Below, piece by piece: positions 16,316-18,909 of a stretch of 64,000 nt of DNA (position 1 is the stretch's first letter; every line of letters begins with the position of its first letter). The notes beneath the pieces are model-generated. The model was given only the letters and a program-made list of their open reading frames with translations, did no database searches and was not told the origin of the DNA. The stretch lies in contig NZ_CP115300.1 in the NCBI RefSeq assembly GCF_027625935.1, forward strand, positions 3,534,001 to 3,598,000. Reading direction: 5' to 3'. The stretch comes from Streptomyces camelliae (GTDB taxonomy: Bacteria; Actinomycetota; Actinomycetes; Streptomycetales; Streptomycetaceae). The position numbers and the translations under genes were made by a program.

Positions 16316-16338
16316 TTGTCAGTGGGCGCGGATAGCGT
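16316..16338 (+). promoter_or_regulatory. RecA-NDp-type (PafBC) promoter of the clamp paralog
   Basis: TTGTCAGTG (16316-16324), eight bases, then TAGCGT (16333-16338) fits the actinobacterial DNA-damage promoter TTGTCRGTG-N8-TAnnnT exactly. The start codon of the clamp-like gene is 38 bases downstream of the last promoter base. A second, independent copy of the motif precedes the next gene. Confidence 0.85.
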
Positions 16339-16376
16339 CCATGGCACAACTGGTCCATCGAGCGGGGGTTTGTCGT

Positions 16377-17786
16377 ATGGAGTTCCGGATCGCGCGCGGG
16401 GAGCTGGCGGAGGCGGTGGGGAGGACGGCGCGAGCGCTGCCCGCCCGGACGCCGGTGCCGGTGCTGGGCGGATTGCTGCTGACCGCGGAGGCGGGTCGGC
16501 TGACGGTGTCCGGCTTCGACTTCGAGACCATGGTGCGCGTGGAGACCTCCGCCGAGGTGACGGCGGAGGGCCGGGTCCTGGTGCTCGGGCGCAGACTCCT
16601 GGACATCTGCCGGGTGGTGCCCGAGGGCCCGGTGAGCTGCGCGCTGGAGGGGACCCGGTTCGGTCTGGAGGCGGGCGGCACCCGGTTCGGGCTGTCGACG
16701 CTGTCGTACGAGGAGTATCCGGCGCTCCCCCCGGCGCCACCGGCGTACGGCGGGGTGGACGCGGAGGCGTTCGCGACGGCCGTCGGGCAGGTGGCGGTGG
16801 CGGCGGGCCGCGACGACACGCTGCCGGTGCTCACCGGGATCCAACTACGGTTCGACGGCGAGGAGATGACGCTGTCGGCCTCCGACCGCTACCGCTACGC
16901 GGTACGGCGGCTGGAGTGGAAGCCGGAGGCGGGGGCGGCCGGCGAGGCGGGGACGGCCGGGGAAGCGCGGCCCGCCGGAGAGGCGGCAGCGGCCCGGGAG
17001 GTGGGAGTAGCCAGGGAAGCGCGGCCCACCGGCGAGGAGGGGTCGGCCGGGGAGGCAGGGCCGACCGGGGAAGCGCGGCCCGCCGGAGAGGCCGGAGCGG
17101 GCCGGGAAGCCGGGGCGGCCCGGGAGGCGGGGGCGGCCCGGGAGGTGCGGCCGACCGGAGAGGCCGGAGCGGGCCGGGAAGCCGGGGCGGCCCGGGAGGC
17201 GGGGGCGGCCGGGTCGGCTGGTGAGGCGGTGGAGGTGCTGTTGCCCGCGCGGCGGCTGCTGGAGGTGGCGCGGTCGCTGGCCCGGTGCGGGACCGTGCGG
17301 ATCGGCCTGGATCCGGCGCAGCAGGCCGGCGGGGGCGTGGTCGGCTTCGCGGGCGGGGGCACCCGGACGGTACTGCGGCGGCTGGAGGGGCGGCTGCCCG
17401 GGTACGGGTCGCTGTTCGCGCTGCCGGACGCGGCGGTCGCCGAGGTGGACTGCGCGGCGCTGACGGAGGCCGTACGACGGGTCGCGGTGGTCGCCGAGGC
17501 GAACAGCCCGGTCCGGCTGGACTTCTCGGCCGCCGAGGGCACGCTGCTGGTGCGGGCCGGGTACGGGGACGACGTGGCGGCACAGCGGCTGCCGGCCGTA
17601 CTGCACGGGGCCGAGGAGTTCACCGTGGCCTTCAACCCGGCCTATCTGCTCGACGCGCTGAACTCCTTCGAGGGCCCAGAGCTGCGGCTGGAGCTGCTGG
17701 GCAGCGGGCAGCGGGCGCTGCTCGGCGGCACCGGTGCGGCAGCCGGTCACCGGCATCTGCTCATGTCCGTGAAGCAATTGGTCTGA
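16377..17786 (+). CDS. DNA polymerase III beta-subunit (sliding clamp) paralog with a repeat insert
   Basis: From ATG 16377 the product has 469 residues. The N-terminal domain reads [61 protein letters not shown], the middle domain [35 protein letters not shown], and the last domain [21 protein letters not shown], ending in [12 protein letters not shown], close to the canonical MP(V/M)R ending but altered. Between residues about 183 and 281, in a loop of the middle domain, lies a Glu/Ala/Gly/Arg repeat (GEAG-, GREAG-, AREAG- units) absent from normal clamps. Behind a DNA-damage promoter, this is likely an alternative clamp used in repair or mutagenesis; that is inference. Confidence 0.88.
16921..17220 (+). 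repeat. In-frame degenerate repeats inside the clamp paralog
   Basis: About 300 bases encode reiterated Gly/Ala/Glu/Arg units of five to six residues. The newest event is a perfect 56-bp direct repeat, 17083-17138 and 17155-17210, offset by 72 bp so the frame is kept. Units are GC-rich (GCCGGGGAGG-like), typical of slippage-prone coding DNA. Confidence 0.9.
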
Positions 17787-17814
17787 GCTGGGCTTTTTCG
17801 TACTCCGGGGGCCG

Positions 17815-17837
17815 TTGTCAGTGGGCTGCGGTAGCTT
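17815..17837 (+). promoter_or_regulatory. RecA-NDp-type (PafBC) promoter of the ECF sigma gene
   Basis: TTGTCAGTG (17815-17823), eight bases, then TAGCTT (17832-17837) matches TTGTCRGTG-N8-TAnnnT. The core is nearly identical to that at 16316. The sigma-factor start codon is 58 bases downstream. Confidence 0.85.
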
Positions 17838-17895
17838 CCGAAGTGCTGGGGCGCAAGGAAGCGCGAACAGGGACGGCCACAGGGGTGGGTGGACG

Positions 17896-18909
17896 ATGGG
17901 TGACGGCACGGCGACGGCGGACCTCGACGTCGTACTGGAGAAGCACCGGACCGAGCTGACGGGGTACTGCTATCGGATGCTCGGCTCCTCCTTCGAGGCC
18001 GAGGACGCGGTGCAGGACACCCTGGTGCGGGCCTGGCGGAGCTACGAGAAGTTCGAGGGCCGCTCGTCGGTGCGCTCGTGGCTGTACCGGATCGCGACGA
18101 ACGTGTGCCTGGACATGCTGTCGGCGGGCAACAAGAGGGCGAGACCGATGGACCTGACGGAGTCGACCCCGCTCGCGCAGGCGGCGCTCTCCCCCCGCCC
18201 GGAGAACACCTGGCTGGAGCCGATGCCGGACGGGCGGGTGCTGCCGGAGACTCAGGACCCGGCGGACGCGGCCGTCGCGAAGGAGTCCATCCGGCTCGCG
18301 TTCATGGCGGCGCTGCAGCAACTGCCGCCCAAGCAGCGGGCGGTGCTGATCCTGCGCGAGGTGCTGGCGTGGAAGGCCAGCGAGGTCGCCGAGCTGCTGG
18401 GCACCACGGTCGCCTCGGTCAACAGCGCCCTCCAGCGGGCCCGCGCCACGCTCGCCGAGCGGGCCGAGGGCAGCCCGGAGGGGGCCGTGTCCGACCCCCT
18501 GGACGAGGAGCAGCAAAAGCTCCTGGAGCGGTACGTCAAGGCCTTCGAGGGCTACGACATGACGGCGCTGACGGCGTTGCTGCACGAGGACGCCATCATG
18601 ACGATGCCGCCGTTCGACCTGTGGCTGCGCGGTACGGCGGACATCACCGGCTTCATGAGCACGCTGGGCGCGTCCTGCGCCGGCTCCCGCCTGCTGCCGC
18701 TCCGGGCCAACGGGCTGCCGGCGTTCGCGCACTACAAGCCGGACGAGGAGAAGGGCGGGTTCAGCCCCTGGGCGGTGCAGATCCTGGAGATCTCAGACGG
18801 CCGGATCACCGGTTTCCACTGCTTCCTCGACGCCCAGCGCTGGTTCCCCCTTTTCGGCCTGCCCCTCCACCTGGAAGCGGAGTCCGACGAGGTCGAGGAG
18901 GGCGAGTAG
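17896..18909 (+). CDS. ECF sigma factor, SigG-like, with SnoaL-like C-terminal domain
   Basis: From ATG 17896 the product has 337 residues. Region 2 is LTGYCYRMLGSSFEAEDAVQDTLVRAWRSYEKFEGRSSVRSWLYRIATNVCLDML; region 4 is ALQQLPPKQRAVLILREVLAWKASEVAELLGTTVASVNSALQRARATLAE. From about residue 215 a NTF2/SnoaL-like domain follows (LERYVKAFEGYDMTALTALLHEDAIMTMPPFDLWLRGTADI). This architecture is that of the SigG family (TIGR02960 type). SigG of M. tuberculosis is itself driven by a RecA-NDp promoter, in line with the motif at 17815. No anti-sigma gene is adjacent; the C-terminal domain may regulate activity in cis. The last 117 bases overlap a convergent gene. Confidence 0.9.
   Translation: MGDGTATADLDVVLEKHRTELTGYCYRMLGSSFEAEDAVQDTLVRAWRSYEKFEGRSSVRSWLYRIATNVCLDMLSAGNKRARPMDLTESTPLAQAALSPRPENTWLEPMPDGRVLPETQDPADAAVAKESIRLAFMAALQQLPPKQRAVLILREVLAWKASEVAELLGTTVASVNSALQRARATLAERAEGSPEGAVSDPLDEEQQKLLERYVKAFEGYDMTALTALLHEDAIMTMPPFDLWLRGTADITGFMSTLGASCAGSRLLPLRANGLPAFAHYKPDEEKGGFSPWAVQILEISDGRITGFHCFLDAQRWFPLFGLPLHLEAESDEVEEGE

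Follow-up and report, generated by a model that had tools for sequence, protein, structure and literature searches.

In the textbook account, one beta clamp serves both replication and repair, and its partners compete for one cleft. Second clamps are already known in Bacillus (PMC3290774) and as proposed self-resistance genes in actinomycetes (PMC10817943); damage-inducible SigG and promoters of the RecA-NDp type are known as well. The present analysis concerns a second clamp gene of Streptomyces camelliae and, next to it, a gene for an extracytoplasmic function (ECF) sigma factor of the SigG type, both found in a stretch of 64,000 nucleotides (C1:3534001-3598000) of its 9.6-Mb genome (G000). 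This whole stretch is called the window, and positions are counted from its first nucleotide. By slightly more than an even chance, judged from sequence comparison, the second clamp would be an alternative to canonical DnaN that is made on DNA damage, chooses its partners differently and stands behind its own PafBC-type promoter.

The promoters of the two genes are most readily compared with the mycobacterial PafBC regulon. Its published core is TGTC[AG]G-N10-TA-N3-T, the direction of which matters (PMC8151990), and its reported targets include recA, uvr genes, ruvC and sigG (PMC8223512); RecA-NDp promoters beyond mycobacteria have already been published in the same source. S. camelliae shares the core and the orientation, and its recA, uvrA, uvrB, ruvC and SigG genes carry the motif. 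Most of its sites read TGTCAG, whereas M. smegmatis has TGTCGG (PMC8151990), and the available text on the mycobacterial regulon, unlike the present locus, makes no mention of a second clamp as a target. The element of the clamp gene, TTGTCAGTG-GGCGCGGA-TAGCGT, lies on the plus strand at 16316..16338, 38 bp ahead of the ATG (16377) of the clamp (16377..17786, plus strand, 469 amino acids plus stop). The element of the sigma gene, TTGTCAGTG-GGCTGCGG-TAGCTT, lies on the same strand at 17815..17837, 58 bp ahead of the ATG (17896) of the sigma factor (17896..18909, plus strand, 337 amino acids plus stop). Both are exact, fit the published core and are correctly oriented close upstream of their genes; with up to two mismatches allowed, the window contains just these two, while shuffled versions of it held 0.31 motifs on average and two or more in 4 of 100 shuffles. 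No LexA-box-like sequences were found by a simple regular-expression (regex) search within 16200-16420 and 17700-17930.

The clamp protein contains PF00712, PF02767 and PF02768 in order and scores 183.2 bits against TIGR00663 (cut-off 137.65). The sigma protein, of the PRK08241 kind, combines sigma r2, r4_2 and C-terminal SnoaL-like domains and scores 499 bits against TIGR02960 (SigX5; cut-off 265). M. tuberculosis SigG is taken here to belong to the same SigX5/PRK08241 kind. The initial annotation had described a DnaN-like clamp and a SigG-type ECF sigma factor behind two nearly identical RecA-NDp promoters, and in these respects it is borne out: positions, strand, core and domains agree, PafB-like and PafC genes are present in the genome, and the pairing of motif and gene recurs in other Streptomyces, at 51 of 53 clamp loci and 58 of 69 SigG loci.

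S. camelliae has two DnaN genes, and the paralog is 55-56% identical to the canonical DnaN of the same genome over the N-terminal 180 residues. Within the genus the paralog (at least 60% identity) was found in 28 of 101 genomes, all 101 of which have some DnaN match; a search of the order placed it in 43 of 197 genomes and in one of six genera, Streptomyces alone. When the C-terminal part was searched against the class, none of the matches listed from outside the genus was more than 49% identical, at E-value limits tuned to close relatives, by which remote kin of the paralog may be missed. The 59 distinct paralogs form one clade in the tree, apart from the canonical clamps. As a second, diverged chromosomal clamp the paralog resembles, by description, the deletable DnaN-2 of Bacillus, for which, unlike here, no damage promoter is mentioned in the available text (PMC3290774).

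At 51 of 53 paralog loci of other genomes the motif is found no more than 250 bp ahead of the gene; L061 and L148 have close variants instead, altered either in the second half or at a single base. Percentages of motif conservation, being circular at the positions that the search pattern fixes, carry no weight here. It was found upstream of none of 21 canonical dnaN genes and none of 8 plasmid dnaN genes. Across 27 paralog loci, amounting to 324 kb, a regex search returned 33 matches, all of which belong to the clamp (26) or to SigG (7). The 53 loci leave out twelve of the thirteen order-search paralog matches without a new locus, the thirteenth (G056) being L057, and also seven named loci (L064-L070) that all have both motifs; among them are L065 of S. 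hygroscopicus NBRC 3401 and L070 of S. monashensis MUSC 1, and L065 and L066 coincide gene for gene with L071 and L072. The neighbourhoods of the paralog are of at least three kinds, most of them without SigG: MFS-clamp-SigG; a kinase with a PucR-type regulator and a chitinase; YceI with GH101; and single cases. The motif is kept across these neighbourhoods, so the promoter goes with the clamp and not with SigG.

The clamp cleft has been described as two halves, subsites I and II (PMC11139829). The 59 paralogs were compared with 23 canonical clamps in E. coli numbering, a fixed difference being a position at which each set holds its own, different residue in at least 90% of its members. Fixed differences are found at 44 of 366 positions. 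None falls on the 12 positions of subsite I, although residues 172, 177 and 246 vary among the paralogs, while three (323, 344, 363) fall on the 8 positions of subsite II, a concentration that is only suggestive. At the position equivalent to P363, 58 of the 59 paralogs have serine and one has alanine, where all 23 canonical clamps have proline; in the window the serine codon is at 17766-17768, within the ten-residue C-terminal tail (17754..17783, plus strand) that forms part of subsite II. The paralog lacks the conserved subsite II proline and is thus a DnaN homolog with an altered cleft. The MP tail is present at all 11 clamp loci of the class search (all with MPVR, nine of them outside the genus), in all 8 plasmid clamps and in four further extra clamps from Streptomyces (L098, L099, L100, L104).

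The same substitution has been made in E. coli, where P363S impairs binding of the Pol III alpha subunit and the mutant clamp does not support viability as the sole clamp (PMC4045847). The paralog has serine at the same cleft position, and differs from that laboratory mutant in that its serine is natural and fixed. With the fold and subsite I kept and subsite II changed, one would expect the paralog to be loadable and its binding of the replicative polymerase to be weaker. The core of the interface between subunits (E. coli I78, F106, I272, L273) stays hydrophobic in the paralogs (I/V, F, V, V), while its neighbours are changed: E304 is glutamine in 59 of 59, leucine 74 is arginine and threonine 107 is glycine. 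These altered residues might disfavour mixed rings.

The paralog may instead do the same job as canonical DnaN and be induced only to raise the number of clamps once DNA is damaged. It retains its three domains and subsite I, and dnaX and a gene for a replicative-type Pol III alpha have motif sites of their own, while canonical dnaN has the motif in 0 of 21 cases; added dosage, however, would need none of the 44 fixed differences, which include serine for the cleft proline in 58 of 59 paralogs, and we regard this explanation as unlikely, if still worth weighing.

A further explanation, to be thought distinctly unlikely, is that the motif is an ordinary Streptomyces promoter shape outside PafBC control and that the clamp is constitutive. 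It draws on a 2022 report in which the PafBC motif of M. smegmatis seemed, by an initial search, to lack conservation in S. venezuelae, and according to which a RecA/LexA-independent response in Streptomyces is still to be demonstrated (PMC9380542). The motif counts speak against it. In G000, TTGTCAGTGN8TAGNNT with at most one mismatch is found at 55 sites (15 exact matches), while the reversed pattern used as control gives 1. In the genus, TTGTCAGTGN8TANNNT is present in 101 of 101 Streptomyces genomes with 2037 matches (median 18 per genome, range 3 to 40), against 5 for the control. The gene downstream of each of the 53 other sites of G000 (L001-L030 without L005 and L006, and L223-L247) was taken as the most gene-like frame; 50 were scanned against Pfam (all except L234, L243 and L245) and nine or ten also against NCBIfam, long genes being covered in the part inside the fetched stretch. 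By our own reading of the matches, 18 of the 50 scanned genes encode repair, recombination or replication proteins: RecA, UvrA, UvrB, RuvC, RarA, the uracil-DNA glycosylase UDG (ung), RadA, PcrA, a UvrD-type helicase, a RecD2-HHH protein, a DinG/YoaA-type helicase, an Lhr-type helicase, a DnaQ-like exonuclease, an AlkZ-like protein, MGMT, DnaX (L226), a Pol III alpha nearer the DnaE1 than the DnaE2 models (L237) and Pol IV (L242). Many sites do precede genes without a repair role, as an ordinary promoter would. A macrodomain gene of G000 also has the motif and recalls SCO6735, the macrodomain gene of S. coelicolor that has a RecA-NDp promoter and is induced fivefold by ultraviolet light (PMC5087735). 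The putative regulators are present too: next to the Pup ligase and proteasome genes lie a PafB-like WYL gene and, after it, a PafC-HTH/WYL gene. Taken together, the motif counts speak for a LexA-independent PafBC-type response in Streptomyces, without proving one.

At 26 of the 53 other sites of G000, by our count, the chosen start codon comes just 6-9 bases after the -10 hexamer, a spacing that would be expected if the transcripts are leaderless, and some clamp paralog loci show such a spacing too, of 7 bases.

Natural-product clamp inhibitors bind in the partner cleft. The paralog, as a second DnaN in an actinomycete with changes in that cleft, could protect the cell against such inhibitors, like GriR and MypR of the griselimycin and mycoplanecin clusters. 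This role has been proposed for second DnaN genes in actinomycetes, and by description those genes lie in antibiotic clusters near transposases (PMC10817943). No cluster gene is found among the window neighbours or among nine proteins at five other loci. In the window the neighbours are a LysR gene, an MFS transporter gene (14980-16278, plus strand), a STAS-domain gene (18793-19206, minus strand) that shares 117 bp with the end of the sigma gene, and the pyrimidine-salvage genes that come after it; of the nine neighbour proteins elsewhere, eight have a family match and none of these is biosynthetic. The promoter, moreover, is of the damage type, and self-protection is improbable for this paralog. 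A STAS match adjoins SigG in most SigG-linked relatives. A different extra DnaN, L098 (G053:C4:2000-14000), is 47% identical, has an MPVR tail, lies near a tryptophan-halogenase-like gene, and might be the self-resistance clamp of a biosynthetic cluster.

Clamps carried by plasmids are distinct from the paralog. The DnaN homologs of linear plasmids of Streptomyces and Kitasatospora come from the same bacterial family, but they have MPIR or MPVR tails, lack the NDp motif in 8 of 8 cases and occupy a separate branch; 21 paralogs part from the 8 plasmid clamps in the tree with 100/100 support. A plasmid origin was rejected on the other tail and the missing motif of these 8 clamps, drawn from 48 matching plasmid records. 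Phage clamps, in 62 records, are less than 60% identical to the paralog.

The length and the constraint of the paralogs were also compared. The 59 aligned proteins run from 365 to 469 amino acids; most have 365-392, L076, L137 and L140 have 400-404, L064 has 426 and the window copy 469. The extra length of the last two is a loop of the central domain, which in the window copy (16926..17207, plus strand) is an insert that follows E. coli residue 188, about 94 residues long, rich in Gly, Glu and Ala and built of tandem repeats with 18-, 54- and 72-bp periods. The insert is shorter in the nearest relative and almost absent from the six other named relatives, all Streptomyces. An AlphaFold model based on 8 close sequences is of low confidence, with a mean predicted local distance difference test score (pLDDT) of 52.5 and a predicted template modelling score (pTM) of 0.33, and in it the insert, at pLDDT 26-31, is predicted to be disordered. 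The ratio of nonsynonymous to synonymous substitution rates (dN/dS) is 0.27-0.40 in 13 pairs of 8 close paralogs, indicating moderate purifying selection, and 0.04-0.09 in 6 pairs of canonical dnaN. Clamp remnants stand beside SigG at three loci, L109 (G080), L112/L103 (G007) and L118/L102 (G099); G080 also has an intact copy (L079), so clamp copies may be lost and regained. That the paralog is a decaying duplicate or the remnant of a mobile element, with its promoter a leftover, has in its favour the patchy presence, these remnants, the repeat-filled loop and one copy (G040) beside a transposase 20 kb from a contig end, and is nevertheless improbable in view of the 59 distinct proteins of 365-469 amino acids, the dN/dS of at most 0.40 in all 13 pairs, the motif retained at nearly all loci and the tree position apart from the plasmid clamps.

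SigG has a history of its own in the genus. Its orthologs (at least 63% identity) are present in 90 of 101 genomes, and the motif is found upstream of 58 of 69 SigG loci from the 90 genomes, the window genome excluded; eight of the 11 misses are one base off in the core, for example TTGTCAGTC. Among the 53 paralog loci, SigG lies within 400 bp of the clamp in 22, where 26 of the 53 reach just 1.5 kb beyond the matched part. At 29 SigG loci of other genomes, 16 have an MFS gene upstream without a clamp, 3 have a clamp remnant, 6 have a clamp and 4 have neither within the stretch. The clamp and SigG were accordingly rejected as a unit, and the two-gene damage module of the initial annotation is not supported: linkage is limited to 22 of 53 loci, and SigG is present in 90 of 101 genomes against 28 of 101 for the clamp. 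M. tuberculosis SigG is an alternative sigma factor with a RecA-NDp promoter (PMC3776920); the Streptomyces gene has a promoter of this type as well, and it differs in adjoining a clamp paralog in one lineage. In M. tuberculosis, SigG was reported not to regulate DNA repair genes and its over-expression raised few genes (PMC3776920), which leaves little for the suggestion that the pair reprogrammes transcription. The further suggestion that the clamp is swapped fares better, as the altered cleft lends it support; the swap itself we infer. From the sequence survey, clamp and SigG are best described as members of a set of dozens of motif-bearing genes.

The favoured reading, a damage-induced clamp with altered partner choice, can be set out as follows. 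DNA damage would open the motif promoters through PafBC, and the cell would then add a diverged second beta clamp expressed from its own promoter. The paralog would ring DNA by means of its three-domain fold and its hydrophobic interface core, with subsite I, the anchor half of the cleft, kept. The changes in subsite II, above all the serine at the P363 position, would select different partners. Repair or bypass partners could then act at gaps and would not have to compete with the clamp of the replisome, and the replicative polymerase would be left to canonical DnaN. SigG next door would be another regulon member behind a like promoter and not the partner of the clamp.

Several observations weigh against this reading. 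Fixed differences are more frequent in subsite II than over the whole protein, but not significantly so (one-sided p = 0.059). In E. coli, P363S also weakens the binding of UmuD and UmuD' (PMC4045847), so the substitution cannot be read as a plain shift of preference to bypass polymerases. The motif sites of the replicative-type Pol III alpha gene and dnaX indicate that the regulon is not one of bypass alone, and 32 of the 50 scanned genes were not counted as repair genes (MoaA, FolB, MFS, SUKH-4 and others, some without a family). The 51 of 53 loci with the motif are related sequences and not independent events. Finally, the clamp is patchy in its distribution, decayed in some genomes and less constrained than canonical dnaN, and is thus dispensable to the genus.

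An association of the paralog with error-prone polymerases was considered and dropped. By PF00817 counts, a second Y-family gene is present in 27 of 28 paralog-bearing genomes and in 52 of 73 others (p = 0.006, uncorrected for kinship); a direct search with that gene of the error-prone cassette shows it to be present nearly everywhere, in 28 of 28 and, by our reading, 63 of 73 genomes (p = 0.058, likewise uncorrected), and the association was dropped on this count. Three of the genomes that lack this gene are under 85% complete. At L278 and L281 a DnaE2-like polymerase, under the model cut-off, overlaps a short Y-family polymerase-like gene whose alignment to the profiles starts some 85 residues in; strong matches were found in 91 of 101 genomes.

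A literature search, the coverage of which excluded most subscription journals, found no damage-promoter clamp in Streptomyces. On the UV-induced short beta of E. coli, the text consulted has the term UV-inducible solely within a citation that concerns a different subject. The motif survey, with the motif in all 101 genomes and repair genes marked by it in G000, makes the question raised in PMC9380542 about the PafBC response testable. Only tentatively can a wider proposal be put forward: that part of Streptomyces possesses a dedicated damage clamp of a single old clade, which would be induced through PafBC, would ring DNA as DnaN does, would no longer bind the replicative polymerase with normal affinity owing to the change from proline to serine in the cleft, may avoid mixed rings by way of its altered interface residues, and would carry repair synthesis on a separate clamp pool, its gene and promoter having been inherited together through several chromosomal positions. 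A natural clamp behind a damage promoter that carries a substitution known from E. coli to spoil Pol III binding would, if this is true, separate two clamp pools in one cell, and would offer a clean test of partner choice.

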